Shown here piece after piece: positions 3,408-57,453 of a DNA stretch of 64,000 bases (its first letter is position 1; the number at the start of each line of letters is the position of its first letter). This DNA is from Stenotrophomonas maltophilia (GTDB taxonomy: Bacteria > Pseudomonadota > Gammaproteobacteria > Xanthomonadales > Xanthomonadaceae), in contig NZ_LT906480.1 of assembly GCF_900186865.1 (NCBI RefSeq), positions 4,110,001-4,174,000 on the forward strand, written 5' to 3'. The translations under genes and the position numbers were made by a program. The notes under the pieces were generated by a model, which saw only the letters and a list, made by a program, of their open reading frames with translations, searched no databases and was not told the origin of the DNA.

Positions 3408-3511
3408 GGCCGGGTGGGTGGGCTGGGCGGGGGTGTCAGCCGCATGGATGCGGCTGCCAAGCCTACAAGGACGTACTTGCGGCGTCCCCCGAACAGCCTA
3501 CCTACCCGGCC
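3408..3511 (-). repeat. Long-arm hairpin element copy R1
   Basis: Arms 3408-3433 and 3486-3511 pair over 26 positions with two G-T and two G-A mismatches, around a 52-nt loop. Read on the minus strand, the sense of ggt, the loop contains GCAAGTACGTCC and then GCCGCATCCATGCGGC, an inner hairpin with apex CATCCATG. This is the same loop family as the other five copies. Between this element and the ggt stop (3512-3572) the sequence resembles the outer inverted repeat at 46482-46517. Confidence 0.8.
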
Positions 3512-43317: not shown

Positions 43318-45960
43318 ATGTACTGGCTCAGCCGCCACCGGATGCTGTTGCTGACCATCCTGGTGATGGTCGGAGGCACCGTGCTTTGTGCGGTCGCCGC
43401 CGGCCACTACGCCTGGCGGCGCGCCCTCGGCGAGGAAAGCAGCCAGGTGCAACGCCAGCTGCAGCTGTACGGCCAGGGCCTGCAGCAGCGCATCGACCGC
43501 TTCGGCACGTTGCCGCAGGTACTGGCGCTGGATCCGGATCTGCTGCACGCCCTGCGTGTGCCGCCCTCGCCCACCGAACAGCAGCGGCTGAACCTCAAGC
43601 TGCAACGCGCCAATGAAGTCACCCGTGCCTCGACCCTGACCCTGGTCGGCCACGACGGGGTGGCAGTGGCGGCCAGCAACTGGGACCAGCCGACCAGCAA
43701 CGTCGGCGAGAACTACAGCTACCGCCCCTACTACCGGCAGGCACTGGCGCAGGGCCGCGGCCGCTTCTACGGCATCGGCATGACCACCGGCGTACCCGGC
43801 TACTACCTGTCGCAGGCCATCGAGGAAGACGGCAAGCGGCTCGGCGTGGTGGTGATCAAGGTCGAGCTGTCGGCGCTGGAACAGGAATGGTTGAGCAGCC
43901 CGGACGTGGTGCTGGCCAGCGACGACCATGACGTGGTGTTCCTGGCCAACCGTGACAGCTGGCGCTACCGCCTGCTGCGCCCGCTGGGCGCCGATGAGCG
44001 CCGCGAAATGCTGGACGCCCGCCAATACGCCGACCGCGCGTTGCAGCCATTGCGCGCGCGTACTGAAGACGTGCTTGCCGATGGTGGCCGCATGGTGCGC
44101 CTGCTCGATCCCGCACTGCCGCAGCCGATGCTGTGGCAAAGCCTGCCGCTGCCCGCCGAAGGCTGGAACCTGCATCTGCTGCACGACGCCAGCGCCGCCA
44201 CCGCCGCCGGTCGCGCGGCCGCCCTCACCGGCGGTGCCGCGTGGCTGGCGCTGGGCTTCCTGGTGCTGTTCGTGCAGCAGCGCCGACGCCTGGCCAAGCA
44301 TCGCCTGCGCAGCCGCCGCGAACTGGAAACCCTGCTCAAGCAGCACGCACAGGAACTGCGCACCGCACAGGATGGCCTGCTGCAGGCGGCCACCGACGCC
44401 GACAGCGGACTCAGCCGCAGCCTCGAACACCTGCCGCAGGGCGTGGTGGTGATCGACCGCGAACTGCGCCTGGTCGCGTGGAACTCGCGCTACCTGGAAC
44501 TGTTCCGTTTCCCACAGGACCTGGTTCGCGTCGGCCGGCCGATCGAGGAACTGTTCCGCTTCAACGCACGCCGTGGCCTGCTCGGTCCGGGCCCGGTCGA
44601 TGAAGCAATCGAGCGCCGCCTGAACCACCTGCGCAGCGGCCGCCCGCACATGCGCGAGAGCGAGAAGGACGACGGCACGGTGCTGGAGATCCGTGGCAAT
44701 CCGCTGCCTGACGGCGGCTTCGTCACCAGCTATGCCGACATCACCAGCTACAAGAACGCCGCGCGCGAACTGCGCTCGTTGGCCGATGCGCTGGAGCACC
44801 GCATCGCCGAGCGCACCCATGATCTGGAAGAAGCACGCCGCGAAGCCGAGCAGGCCAACCGCTACAAGACCCGTTTCGTTGCCTCGGCCGTGCACGACCT
44901 GCTGCAGCCCCTCAACGCGGCGCGCATGTTCGTCTCGGTGCTGCGCGGCAAGCTGAGTGACCCGGCGCAGCAACAGACCAGCGACCACATCGATGCTGCA
45001 TTGGCCGCGCAGGATGCGATCCTCAACAGCCTGCTGGATATCGCGCGCCTGGAATCGGGCAGCCTGCCCACGCGCGTACAGGCGTTCCGGCTCGGGCCTT
45101 TGCTGCAGACGCTGGCACGCGAGTTCGGCATCGCCGCGCAGTCACGCGGGCTGGTGGTCGACTGGGTCGATACCGCTGCGGTGGTGGTCAGCGATGAAGC
45201 GCTGCTGCGCCGCATCCTGCAGAACTTCCTGTCCAACGCATTGCGCTACAGCGAACGTGGCCGCGTGCTGCTCGGCTGCCGTCGCCGCGAAGGCCTGCTG
45301 TGGATCGAAGTTCACGACCAAGGCCCCGGCATTCCCGATGCACTGCAGGGCGAGATCTTCGAGGAGTTCCGCCGCCTGCACGACGGCCAGCAGCGCGGCG
45401 CCGGCCTTGGCCTGGCAATCGTCGACCGCATCGGTCGGCTGCTCGGCCACCCGATCCGCCTGCGCTCGCAGCTGGGCCAGGGCAGCGTGTTCGCGGTGGG
45501 CGTGCCGTTCGGCGAAGCCAGCGCGATTCCCGCTACTGCTCCTGTGCCGGTGCTGGTGCAGGAACCGGCCGCGGACAATCCGCTGCGCGGTCGCCGGGTG
45601 TGGGTGATCGACGACGATCCGCACGTCTGCGCCGCCAGCCGCGCGCTGCTGGAGCGCTGGGGCTGCGAGGTGGCGCTGGCCGACGGCCCGCAGGCGGCGC
45701 TGCAGCTGGCGGCAACAGGCGCGGTGCCGGAGCTGGTGCTGCTGGATGTGCGCATGGGCGATCACCACGGGCCGGTGCTGTACGAGACGCTGACCGAGTT
45801 GTGGCAGGCCCGTCCGCCGGTGGTGCTGGTCACCGCCGAGCGCGATGCGGGATTGCGTGAGATGGCCGCCGAGCGCGGCTGGGGAATGATGGCCAAGCCG
45901 GTGAAGCCGCCGGCGCTGCGGGCGTTGATGAGCCAGTTGTTGATCCGCCATCGCGGGTAG
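43318..45960 (+). CDS. DctB-like hybrid sensor histidine kinase
   Basis: An 880-residue membrane kinase. TM1 near residues 10-30; a periplasmic double-Cache sensor (about 40-290) with GRFYGIGMTTGVPGYYLSQAI, like the dicarboxylate sensor DctB; TM2 near 300-320; a coiled coil; a PAS domain (about 365-480); HisKA with VHDLLQPLNAARMF (His526); HATPase (NFLSNALRYSERG ... HDQGPGIPD ... GAGLGLAIV); and a C-terminal receiver with phospho-Asp810 (LLDVRMGD). It is probably the sensor for the dctA/porin module, signalling to the LuxR-type regulator at 46515. The TAG stop lies in a 36-bp inverted repeat shared with that gene's 3' end. Confidence 0.92.
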   Translation: MYWLSRHRMLLLTILVMVGGTVLCAVAAGHYAWRRALGEESSQVQRQLQLYGQGLQQRIDRFGTLPQVLALDPDLLHALRVPPSPTEQQRLNLKLQRANEVTRASTLTLVGHDGVAVAASNWDQPTSNVGENYSYRPYYRQALAQGRGRFYGIGMTTGVPGYYLSQAIEEDGKRLGVVVIKVELSALEQEWLSSPDVVLASDDHDVVFLANRDSWRYRLLRPLGADERREMLDARQYADRALQPLRARTEDVLADGGRMVRLLDPALPQPMLWQSLPLPAEGWNLHLLHDASAATAAGRAAALTGGAAWLALGFLVLFVQQRRRLAKHRLRSRRELETLLKQHAQELRTAQDGLLQAATDADSGLSRSLEHLPQGVVVIDRELRLVAWNSRYLELFRFPQDLVRVGRPIEELFRFNARRGLLGPGPVDEAIERRLNHLRSGRPHMRESEKDDGTVLEIRGNPLPDGGFVTSYADITSYKNAARELRSLADALEHRIAERTHDLEEARREAEQANRYKTRFVASAVHDLLQPLNAARMFVSVLRGKLSDPAQQQTSDHIDAALAAQDAILNSLLDIARLESGSLPTRVQAFRLGPLLQTLAREFGIAAQSRGLVVDWVDTAAVVVSDEALLRRILQNFLSNALRYSERGRVLLGCRRREGLLWIEVHDQGPGIPDALQGEIFEEFRRLHDGQQRGAGLGLAIVDRIGRLLGHPIRLRSQLGQGSVFAVGVPFGEASAIPATAPVPVLVQEPAADNPLRGRRVWVIDDDPHVCAASRALLERWGCEVALADGPQAALQLAATGAVPELVLLDVRMGDHHGPVLYETLTELWQARPPVVLVTAERDAGLREMAAERGWGMMAKPVKPPALRALMSQLLIRHRG

Positions 45961-46017
45961 TTTCCAGCCAACGGCGCAGCCCCTCGTGGGTGGTCGCACA
46001 AAGCAGTTCATCGGTGG

Positions 46018-46121
46018 GGCCGGGCAGATGGGCTGCACAGGGGCCGCTGCAAGTACGTCCCTGTAAGCTCGGTCGCCGCATCCATGCGGCTCACGCCCCT
46101 GTGCAGCCCATCTGCCCGGCC
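46018..46121 (+). repeat. Long-arm hairpin element copy L2
   Basis: Perfect 27-bp arms (46018-46044 and 46095-46121) around a 50-nt loop. The loop contains GCAAGTACGTCCCTGTAAGC and GCCGCATCCATGCGGC, matching copy R1 read on the minus strand. It is in the sense orientation of the upstream kinase gene. Confidence 0.9.
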
Positions 46122-46142
46122 ACGGACACGTTCCGTGCGCGT

Positions 46143-46319
46143 CCACCCTCGGAGAAGAAAAAAGATCAAAAGCGGGTCGCGCGCTGCGCTTGCTCGTGTA
46201 GAGCCGAGCCCATGCTCTTGCTTTCCGGCCGGTCCGCGAAGCCGAGCGTGGGCGCGGCTCTACAAAAGGCGGCCTGACAGCCTGCTTTGCTTTTGATCTT
46301 TTTTCTTCTCCGTGGGTGG
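46143..46319. terminator. Bidirectional terminator-like inverted repeat
   Basis: The 31-bp arms (46143-46173, 46289-46319) are complementary except for one base and contain a purine run (GGAGAAGAAAAAAGATC) on one side and a T-rich run (GATCTTTTTTCTTCTCC) on the other, so a poly-U tract is present in both directions. A REP pair occupies the loop. Confidence 0.75.
46198..46263. repeat. REP pair inside the bidirectional terminator
   Basis: GTAGAGCCGAGCCCATGCTC at the left and GAGCGTGGGCGCGGCTCTAC at the right are GTAG-headed inverted units with a GAGC stem variant, separated by about 26 bp. Confidence 0.8.
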
Positions 46320-46341
46320 CAGGCCACCGAAATCTGTCAGA

Positions 46342-46445
46342 GGCCGGTCGGGTTGGGTGCGCGGGGGTGTCAGCCGCATGGATGCGGCTGCCAAGCCTCC
46401 AGGGACGGATTCACGGCGTCCCCCGCGCACCCAACCCGACCGGCC
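46342..46445 (-). repeat. Long-arm hairpin element copy R2
   Basis: Perfect 26-bp arms (46342-46367 and 46420-46445) around a 52-nt loop. Read in the sense of the minus-strand regulator gene, the loop has GCCGTGAATCCGTCCCTGG and GCCGCATCCATGCGGC. The arm sequence is unrelated to those of the other five copies. Confidence 0.9.
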
Positions 46446-46514
46446 CGCTCGCAGCTTCTGCTTTCAGCGACCAACCCAAACCCACCCACGAGGGGCTGCG
46501 CTGTTGGCTGGAAA

Positions 46515-47165
46515 CTACAACCCGATGCCGGCGTCGCCCTCGGGCTCCAGCGCCTTCACCAGCACCGCTGCCTGCGTGCGGCTATGGCATTCGAGCTTCT
46601 TCAGGATCGCAGTGACATGTACCTTCACCGTGTTCTCGGCCAACCCCAGCGTGTAGGCGATCTGCTTGTTGAGCAGGCCATCGGCCAGGCACAGCAGTAC
46701 CCGGAACTGCTGCGGGGTCAGCTGGGCCAAGCGGCTGGCCAGCAGTGCGTCGGCCTCGGAGCGTTCGGCGGCCATCGCCGGGAACCACAGGCCACCATCG
46801 AGCACCGCCTGCACCGCCTCGCCGATGGTCTCGGCCGGGGCGGACTTCGGGATGAAGCCAGCGGCGCCAAACTGCTGAGCACGACGGATCACCCGCGGAT
46901 GGTCGTTGGACGAGAGGATCACCACCGGAATGTCCGGATGCGAGCCGCGCACGTGCAGCAGCGCGGAAAAACCGTGCGCGCCGGGCATGGTCAGGTCCAG
47001 CAGCACCAGGTCCACATTCGGGTGGGCATCCAGCGCTTCGGCCAATGCCTCGGCGCTGGCGACCTCGCGCACCTGCGCCAGCGGCAGGCTCTGCCGCAAT
47101 GACTGCACCACCGCCGAACGCAGCAGCGGGTGGTCATCGGCGATCAGGATGGTGTATTCGCTCAT
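46515..47165 (-). CDS. LuxR/NarL-family response regulator
   Basis: A 216-residue regulator: receiver domain (ADDHPLLR acidic pair, phospho-Asp57 in LLDLTMPG) and a C-terminal LuxR HTH (LTPQQFRVLLCLADGLLNKQIAYTLGLAENTVKVHVTAILKKL, split about residues 150-195). It is convergent with the DctB-like hybrid kinase and probably its partner, controlling dctA and the porin gene. The ATG at 47165. The 29 bp upstream separate it from the substrate-binding protein gene on the same strand. Confidence 0.92.
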   Translation of the reverse strand: MSEYTILIADDHPLLRSAVVQSLRQSLPLAQVREVASAEALAEALDAHPNVDLVLLDLTMPGAHGFSALLHVRGSHPDIPVVILSSNDHPRVIRRAQQFGAAGFIPKSAPAETIGEAVQAVLDGGLWFPAMAAERSEADALLASRLAQLTPQQFRVLLCLADGLLNKQIAYTLGLAENTVKVHVTAILKKLECHSRTQAAVLVKALEPEGDAGIGL

Positions 47166-57345: not shown

Positions 57346-57453
57346 GGCGGCGGTGGGGCACCCTGGCCAGGACCGTGAGGCGCATGGATGCGCCGATCGA
57401 GCCCCCATGGATGGGTTTACGGCGTGTCCTGGCCAGGGTGCCCCACCGCCGCC
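57346..57453 (-). repeat. Long-arm hairpin element copy R3
   Basis: Perfect 28-bp arms (57346-57373 and 57426-57453) around a 52-nt loop. On the minus strand the loop reads ACGCCGTAAACCCATCCATG and then GGCGCATCCATGCGCC. The loop is close to L3 but the arms are unrelated. Confidence 0.9.

Follow-up and report, generated by a model that had tools for sequence, protein, structure and literature searches.

A class-wide intergenic hairpin repeat in Stenotrophomonas maltophilia and a proposed docking role of its RNA for RsmA/CsrA

The window analysed here, a stretch of 64,000 nucleotides from the genome of Stenotrophomonas maltophilia (contig NZ_LT906480.1, positions 4,110,001 to 4,174,000), carries six copies of a long intergenic hairpin. 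They probably represent a class-wide, YPAL-like intergenic repeat, formerly or still mobile, whose RNA, read from the strand with the GGA motifs (the GGA strand), would form a three-way junction and present two C[ANGGAN]G loops to one RsmA/CsrA dimer, a reading to which we assign a probability of about 0.62. At the level of sequence, the comparisons below establish the predicted fold, its covariation, the strand, the loop consensus, the spacing, the copy number, the spread, and the independence from gene sense. What is proposed as new is a molecular partner, RsmA/CsrA, for a YPAL-like repeat. To our knowledge, intergenic palindromic repeats have been known for decades and have no agreed function.

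Six hairpins in the window

An earlier, sequence-only reading of the window had described six hairpins (L1, R1, L2, R2, L3, and R3), and all six were found at the positions given in Table 1. The hairpin is 104–108 bp long, with arms often perfect over 25–30 bp. The near-perfect pairing reported for the window was confirmed, with 26/27 positions paired on the GGA strand in L1, 22/26 in R1, 27/27 in L2, 26/26 in R2, 26/27 in L3, and 28/28 in R3; the six departures comprise four G·T and two G·A, and none is A·C. The claim that the arms are unrelated between copies did not extend to the whole genome, in which 85 copies carry 73 different 5' arms, some recurring up to five times. A scan of the whole window for inverted repeats with perfect arms of at least 14 bases and gaps of up to 700 returned 16 repeats, and only L2, R2, L3, and R3 among them had arms of at least 20 around a gap of 50–52; the perfect-arm rule misses L1, which is split by an insertion sequence (IS), and R1, which is mismatched. 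Eight strands (both strands of L2, R2, and R3, one strand each of L3 and R1) were folded and compared with 200 dinucleotide shuffles, giving z values of −7.9 to −10.7, and none of the 200 shuffles folded equally well. The minimum-free-energy fold of R2 contains both hairpins and the GCC/GGC stem.

Table 1. Hairpin copies and associated features in the window (strand of hairpin copies and hexaloops, GGA strand; mismatches as read on the GGA strand)
Feature	Position	Strand	Description
L1	1676..3212	−	arms 1676–1702/3186–3212, one T·G wobble; loop split by IS
IS inside L1 loop	1721..3148	−	ends TGAAGTG.../...CACTTCA; limits judged by eye
R1	3408..3511	+	arms 26 bp, two G·T and two G·A
Outermost inverted repeat, left arm	45957..45993	+	37 bp, 97% complementary to 46482–46518; encloses L2–R2 pair
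L2	46018..46121	−	arms 27 bp, perfect
L2 hexaloops	46085–46080; 46062–46057	−	ATGGAT; AGGGAC
Centre of L2–R2 gap	46131..46331	.	inverted arms 46131–46173/46289–46331, A- and T-rich part
Inner hairpin in centre of L2–R2 gap	46197–46217/46244–46264
R2	46342..46445	+	arms 46342–46367/46420–46445, 26 bp, perfect
R2 hexaloops	46378–46383; 46401–46406	+	ATGGAT; AGGGAC
Outermost inverted repeat, right arm	46482..46518	−
L3	57103..57208	−	arms 27 bp, single T·G wobble
R3	57346..57453	+	arms 28 bp, perfect; both hexaloops ATGGAT

The three pairs are each flanked by convergent genes, namely those for a BCCT transporter and a gamma-glutamyltranspeptidase (L1/R1), a hybrid sensor kinase and a LuxR-type response regulator (L2/R2), and a TonB-dependent receptor and a MATCAP-family protein (L3/R3). 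The two reading frames of the IS in the loop of L1 encode an integrase core and a transposase helix-turn-helix domain. Another copy in the same genome (G000:C1:246115) holds GGGGGTCACTTCA in its loop, resembling the end of this IS, and the two cases suggest that the hairpin loop has repeatedly been used as an IS target. The L2–R2 locus reads as outermost inverted repeat, hairpin, centre, mirror hairpin, and outermost inverted repeat. At least one element was detected by scanning in 19 of 30 fetched L2–R2 loci (own locus included), and several of the other 11 represent a different gene neighbourhood or contig ends. The outermost 37-bp repeats (window 45957–46518; L202–L231) are kept at the gene ends in many relatives, where what they enclose has been inverted, shortened, or replaced. 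The hairpin order is reversed in five relatives (L211, L213, L215, L223, and L224), as if the whole segment between the outermost repeats had been inverted.

Predicted fold and compensatory changes

On the GGA strand, the loop is predicted to form a three-way junction of the outer arms and two hairpins capped by C[ANGGAN]G hexaloops. The inner stem had been recognised earlier, and its apex CATCCATG reads C[ATGGAT]G on the GGA strand, but the second hairpin, NNC[ANGGAN]GNN, had been overlooked. This second hairpin is closed by GCY/RGC across a five-base bulge and varies both in its loop (AGGGAC, ATGGAC, AAGGAC, ACGGAC, AGGGAT, and ATGGAT) and in its stem (CCC/GGG, TCC/GGA, and TAC/GTA). Folding of 32 S. 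maltophilia copies with no structure imposed gave the same junction together with two extra pairs (columns 21–22/45–46), one of which covaries, being C-G in 16 rows and U-A in 16. In these 32 copies, 97.9% of the cells were paired, a value reached by none of 500 shuffles. For 110 distinct class-wide rows, 97.0% were paired, with a covariation score of 0.902 against 0.184 after shuffling, and a second set of 32 distinct rows gave 95.1%.

Selection on a folded nucleic acid, argued earlier from the covarying stems, was borne out by orthologous copies. Orthologous flanks were found for 82 of 143 elements from other genomes, and 36 of these 82 were left out because their arms were unlike; the resulting 46 element comparisons between the S. 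maltophilia genome and other Stenotrophomonas contained 44 distinct two-sided changes that kept Watson-Crick pairing, against about 2 expected if the two sides were independent. Drift of the arms without compensation, which the sequence-only reading had named as evidence against structural selection, is therefore contradicted.

Loop consensus and spacing

Among 111 class-wide matches, 98 first loops and 104 second loops have six bases, and all of these are ANGGAN with all four bases present at both N positions; the remaining 13 first and seven second loops, not six bases as aligned, reflect deletions, shifts, or wrong-strand matches. The closing pair of the hexaloops is C-G in 107/107 and 106/107 scored class-wide rows. 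A second, separately fetched set of 33 matches gave ANGGAN in 31/32 six-base first loops, the lone exception being AAAGAT, and in 29/29 six-base second loops, and four Pseudomonas-type second hairpins in this set are longer and retain AGGGAT. The covariance model used in the searches (R1) leans to GGA because it was trained on ATGGAT first loops, and it accepted every base at the N positions.

It is reported that a high-affinity RsmE/CsrA site is an ANGGAX hexaloop seated immediately on a stem that is closed by a C-G pair, and that N and X are looped out and variable (PMC4005645, excerpt). The SELEX consensus is RUACARGGAUGU, the ligands mostly have at most 4 base pairs, and one dimer bridges sites 10–63 nt apart, best beyond 18 (PMC7652899, excerpt). 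As sequences, the ANGGAN hexaloops correspond to this published high-affinity RsmA/CsrA consensus. The first hairpin of the repeat has six or seven base pairs, compared with the at most four of most SELEX ligands. The two GGA sites start 23 nt apart in 82/85 S. maltophilia copies and 71/82 others, inside the published bridging range, as counted with a search pattern limited to a range of spacings. Of the 82 non-redundant copies outside Stenotrophomonas, 51 contain the string ACANGGANGT, as do 23/85 S. maltophilia copies. A single csrA/rsmA gene is present in the genome, and the first 52 residues of its RsmA match solved CsrA chains full-length, with L4, T5, R6, Q29, and R44 kept (positions counted by hand). 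L4, too, is a residue with a role in this family. Contacts of T5 and Q29 are described in the CsrA/RsmE family (PMC4005645, excerpt), as is a contact of R44 (PMC7652899, excerpt).

Strand of the putative RNA

The strand chosen by the sequence-only reading, that in the sense of the upstream gene, has to be reversed, since arm mismatches and tandem G·A both point to the GGA strand. Outside Stenotrophomonas, 82 non-redundant copies of 115 (33 redundant ones dropped), with all departures scored alike, contain 74 G·T against 9 A·C on the GGA strand, and 45 purine-purine against 10 pyrimidine-pyrimidine mismatches. Of the one-sided changes in orthologous Stenotrophomonas copies, 33 created or removed a G·T, 6 did so for A·C, and 20 were of other kinds; 2 further changes fell in none of these groups. 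In 9 of the 32 S. maltophilia rows, pairs give way to tandem G·A/A·G, which on the opposite strand corresponds to C·T/T·C. Distinct arm pairs gave 51 G·T against 7 A·C under a scoring that favours G·T; the S. maltophilia copies plus those of named genomes, scored alike, gave 81 against 24 after removal of shared contexts, a bias owed partly to more change in the 3' arm.

The bias recurs whatever the direction of the adjacent genes. Outside Stenotrophomonas (81 copies placed, redundancy kept), G·T and A·C number 19 and 3 where both neighbours oppose the GGA strand, 14 and 1 where both agree with it, and 29 and 3 or 14 and 3 in the mixed cases. For the 85 S. maltophilia copies, scored alike, the four neighbour arrangements gave 15/4, 10/5, 18/1, and 4/1, the bias being weaker where both neighbours are codirectional (10 G·T against 5 A·C). 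Neighbouring gene sense was thus ruled out as the determinant of the strand bias, which is present in all four arrangements, and a sense 3'-UTR element is therefore unsupported.

Copies and gene arrangement in the S. maltophilia genome

The genome is a single contig of 5.0 Mb. In 1.656 Mb of it, of which 944 kb is contiguous and unbiased and the remainder was picked for the presence of the loop motif, 85 copies with paired arms were found among 91 motif matches. Covariance model R1, built from 32 copies of this genome, detected 119 matches in the whole genome at E ≤0.001 from 150 scored candidates, the last two matches being weak. The 944-kb block, in which genes were called simply by codon usage, holds 42 copies in 26 gaps, as 16 pairs and 10 singles. 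In all 16 pairs the GGA strands point outward, with apices 208–293 bp apart, in codirectional and convergent gaps alike, which does not support a 3'-UTR element of fixed sense.

Among the gaps of at least 350 bp in the block, 10/24 convergent, 16/52 codirectional, and 0/23 divergent ones are occupied. The convergent setting noted earlier holds for all three window loci but not genome-wide. No copy was found in the 130 divergent gaps of the block or inside a called gene (0/42). Since divergent gaps and genes are avoided, copies in the block lie downstream of at least one gene, and to that extent the expectation that they occur only 3' of genes holds. Six divergent-gap cases (three pairs and three singles) were seen elsewhere, on 20-kb pieces in which genes had been called only roughly.

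In 68/85 copies, the GGA strand has CTGTC immediately ahead of the 5' arm, with the exact string GGAAACTGTC in 25, and this motif was not seen in the flanks examined from other genera. The same gaps also contain SMAG-like repeats. Short reading frames, probably spurious, run through the repeat at L149, L151, L116, and L112, and such frames may get annotated as hypothetical proteins.

Transcription signals and a candidate sRNA locus

In 79 non-redundant copies, sigma-70-like signals were not enriched upstream of the GGA strand (score of 7.15, compared with 7.11, 7.19, and 6.95 in three controls), and no enrichment of a T-tract was observed after the GGA-strand hairpin. An autonomous sRNA transcribed from divergent promoters between paired copies was rejected because the GGA-strand sigma-70-like scores equal those of the controls.

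CsrB and RsmZ gave no match over their cut-offs in the S. maltophilia genome. A stretch of 366 bases (G000:C1:1181350–1181715; L312:350–715, +) has coinciding sub-threshold matches to CsrB (21.7 of the 71 bits required) and RsmZ (14.8 of 44). It contains GGA 18 times, compared with a mean of 11.6 and a maximum of 20 in shuffled sequences, and TCC once, and a hairpin comes after it. Judged by these features, it is a possible conventional RsmA-sequestering sRNA. Because the host thus seems to have a conventional GGA-rich sRNA locus, the repeat would not be needed to fill a gap.

Spread and mobility

A covariance-model search of related genomes, as proposed by the sequence-only reading, gave matches in 68/369 Gammaproteobacteria genomes representing 60/271 genera. 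With covariance model R1, matches were found in 32/61 relatives, 38/149 genomes of the family (16/54 genera), and 18/299 genomes of the phylum, all 18 in the same class. These genome counts include the S. maltophilia genome each time and were obtained with stricter filters than the search within that genome, and the per-genome copy numbers are lower bounds. Among the matches listed from a pattern scan of named genomes are Stenotrophomonas, Marinobacter, Idiomarina, Aliidiomarina, Pseudidiomarina, Saccharospirillum, Ectothiorhodospira, Parahaliea, Porticoccus, Methylocucumis, and several MAGs; one matching contig is labelled Rickettsia, a label that may be wrong. The copies of the genome analysed here resemble those in named S. 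maltophilia records. The distribution among genomes is patchy. Phages and E. coli genomes gave no match, and plasmids gave one record (80% over 48% of the query). Outward pairs recur elsewhere (e.g., L237, L264, two in L177, L116, L255, L270, L086, and L099), unlike the inward neighbours of L112.

One genome (G140) contains at least 12 copies with an identical 52-base core (chosen for equal scores), and their 28-bp arms are identical save for one compensated pair (L272) and one T·G wobble (L273), which shows a recent multiplication of the repeat. By eye, partial copies adjoin near-identical copies in G140, and in another genome (G313) the core lies within a longer inverted repeat in both orientations. 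For Stenotrophomonas, 46 of 48 comparisons with other genomes of the genus were usable, and the matching gap of the S. maltophilia genome holds an element in 40 of them, so most sites in this genus are not recent insertions. In the other six, that gap holds no element and still measures 65–223 bp, and for this reason the search of these comparisons for empty sites with target duplications found no clean empty site.

Proposed mechanism and alternative explanations

In the proposed mechanism, the conserved core would act as an RNA three-way junction that offers its two C[ANGGAN]G hexaloops to a single RsmA/CsrA dimer, and the long arms would serve as a clamp. Chiefly pairing would count in this clamp, so the arms may drift by compensatory change. 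The GGA strand is presumed to be transcribed, and read-through or antisense transcription is its likely source because neither a promoter nor a terminator of its own was found. Whichever way a transcript runs across the gap, an outward pair would provide it with one copy in GGA sense. RsmA would bind the GGA-strand RNA, and the effect may be titration of RsmA and/or its recruitment to the carrying transcript. Descent from a mobile ancestor could account for part of the core conservation.

The repeat might instead be purely selfish DNA that forms a single-stranded hairpin for an unknown transposase, its likeness to RsmA sites being incidental. The target duplications and strain differences of YPAL/RU-2 (PMC2229807, excerpt) would fit such an element, as would the identical cores and near-identical arms of the G140 copies and the patchy distribution. 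However, the strand-specific tolerance of G·T and G·A, together with the tandem G·A/A·G, and the agreement with the RsmA/CsrA loop rule, both free positions included, argue against it, and the arms are compensated even though most of the Stenotrophomonas sites, with an element in 40 of the 46 matching gaps, are not recent insertions; this explanation appears rather unlikely. We also consider it unlikely that the repeat is a 3'-UTR or terminator-proximal hairpin in the sense of the upstream gene (the UCC strand), which would protect mRNA 3' ends or separate convergent genes, for instance. The position of all six window copies in convergent gaps, the vacancy of all 130 divergent gaps in the block, the greater number of T residues that follow the hairpin on the UCC strand (4.0 against 1.4 per 12 nt in 85 S. 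maltophilia copies), and the fact that Ysr224 reads the UCC strand are consistent with such a hairpin. Nevertheless, the arm mismatches favour the GGA strand, in orthologous copies (33 G·T against 6 A·C) as well as in every arrangement of neighbouring genes, pairs in codirectional gaps point both ways, and no known feature of the UCC strand accounts for ANGGAN with free N positions.

Template switching in quasi-palindromes, which copies one arm onto the other without selection, is disfavoured and seems highly improbable. It would produce arms like those here, often perfect over 25–30 bp, but it predicts as many G·T as A·C, where 74 and 9 were observed outside Stenotrophomonas, and it predicts neither the conserved loop nor the covariation in the 3-bp loop stems, both of which were observed. 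An integron-like or retron-like reading of the long variable arms was dropped in view of the loop rule.

If the repeat does carry a docking site for an RsmA/CsrA dimer, a repeat with about 119 copies in this genome would gain a concrete, testable molecular partner, and three separate database and literature entries (YPAL/RU-2, Ysr224, and TwoAYGGAY) would be united. The size of the CsrA/RsmA target pool would then differ greatly between related species, and the variable arms would make sense as a clamp selected for pairing. A wider proposal is more tentative and, in our estimate, falls clearly short of even odds: YPAL-like repeats, Ysr224, TwoAYGGAY, and the elements described here may follow one gammaproteobacterial plan, a mobile RNA module that brings a docking site for a CsrA/RsmA dimer into intergenic regions. 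Under this proposal, 100 or more copies would form a distributed buffer with more than 200 predicted high-affinity loops, able to wire adjoining genes into the Csr/Rsm network. Since the strand bias is independent of neighbouring genes, the RNA may also help the element itself to spread, a process in which CsrA would be an unwitting partner.

Comparison with known systems

The sequence-only reading knew of no description of the repeat, which is in part incorrect: no match reached the Rfam cut-offs in the window, and comparison identified YPAL/RU-2, Ysr224, and TwoAYGGAY as relatives. YPAL/RU-2 is a mobile repeat of 167–168 bp with target-site duplications of 3–26 bp and, like the S. maltophilia repeat, is a multi-copy, intergenic, long hairpin. 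In the printed Y. pestis sequence, the GGA strand carries the core of the S. maltophilia repeat, and its two loops read AAGGAT and ATGGAT (PMC2759123, excerpt). Local alignment of RU-2 with an S. maltophilia copy scored 68, compared with a maximum of 33 in 300 shuffles and 25 for the opposite strand. YPAL/RU-2 is reported to make target duplications and to differ between strains (PMC2229807, excerpt), and a link to mRNA stability has been suggested (PMC2759123, PMC2229807, excerpts). The excerpts list it for Yersinia and Erwinia carotovora and give no CsrA role, strand, or three-way junction. The S. maltophilia hairpin by itself, counted from arm to arm, measures 104–108 bp, and its arms differ from those of RU-2, being GC-rich, often perfect, and largely copy-specific; its copies often stand in outward pairs within larger inverted repeats. 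One copy in another genome (G814, L323:2615–2705) has inner flanks, TAAAGCGTC...GTCTTTACGATCT, that closely resemble YPAL/RU-2, suggesting a YPAL-type subfamily in that genome too.

TwoAYGGAY (RF01731), annotated as cis-regulatory in Rfam, similarly has two AYGGAY-loop hairpins above an outer stem, whereas the loops described here have any second base. Its tandem-GA feature (PMC4333381, excerpt) is shared by the S. maltophilia repeat in only 9/32 rows. Matches of TwoAYGGAY to the repeat lie on the GGA strand and keep its register (e.g., L306 and L300), but they stay below the cut-off of 43 bits, the best scores being 20.6 bits in the S. maltophilia genome and 38.8 in congeners. Matches over the cut-off were found in 3/41 relatives (G052, G042, and G039), and G052 and G042 also carry copies matched by covariance model R1. 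The over-cut-off copies in order-mates scored at most 31 bits with covariance model R1, one being unmatched, and these low scores mark them as a separate type of the same plan. In the order-mates G042 and G052 (L296, L292–L295), several over-cut-off copies occur per genome, so TwoAYGGAY is a multi-copy repeat itself there. TwoAYGGAY has been proposed as a CsrA-sequestering RNA, and the RMfam authors suggested that TwoAYGGAY binds CsrA, as would Bacillaceae-1 when reverse-complemented (PMC4333381, excerpt), which by analogy offers a precedent for the function as well as for the ambiguity of strand.

Ysr224 (RF02770, Yersinia sRNA 224), listed as a temperature-responsive Yersinia sRNA, has a consensus that includes the core's complement, and its matches fall on the UCC strand. 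It thus differs in strand, and its scores are 21.4 bits in the window and 31.9 at best elsewhere, with a cut-off of 70. A link of YPAL or Ysr224 to CsrA, or of CsrA/RsmA to intergenic or miniature inverted repeats, is unstated in the literature searched, which consisted partly of excerpts and left most subscription papers outside. CsrB and RsmX-Y-Z, which are dedicated sRNA genes with several GGA motifs, share with the repeat ANGGA hairpins spaced for one dimer; the repeat differs in having two motifs per copy, about 119 copies, and no promoter or terminator found. SMAG (Stenotrophomonas GTAG repeats) and other REPs are likewise intergenic and palindromic, but they measure 20–40 bp with a GTAG or CGTC end (PMC3733652, excerpt), whereas the present repeat has a variable stem and a loop conserved over 52 nt. 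In P. putida, the intergenic targets of all three Rsm proteins are regions adjacent to ISPpu8 or its potential insertion sites, and one of them, downstream of PP_3547 in KT2440, is given as a "long palindromic region" (PMC7937890, excerpt). The IS in the loop of L1 is a parallel case of an insertion at such a site in the S. maltophilia window. One copy of the repeat (L316) lies next to lapG-lapD-like genes in a genome that is taken as a Pseudomonas, and it is plausible that the long palindrome of P. putida is the same element.
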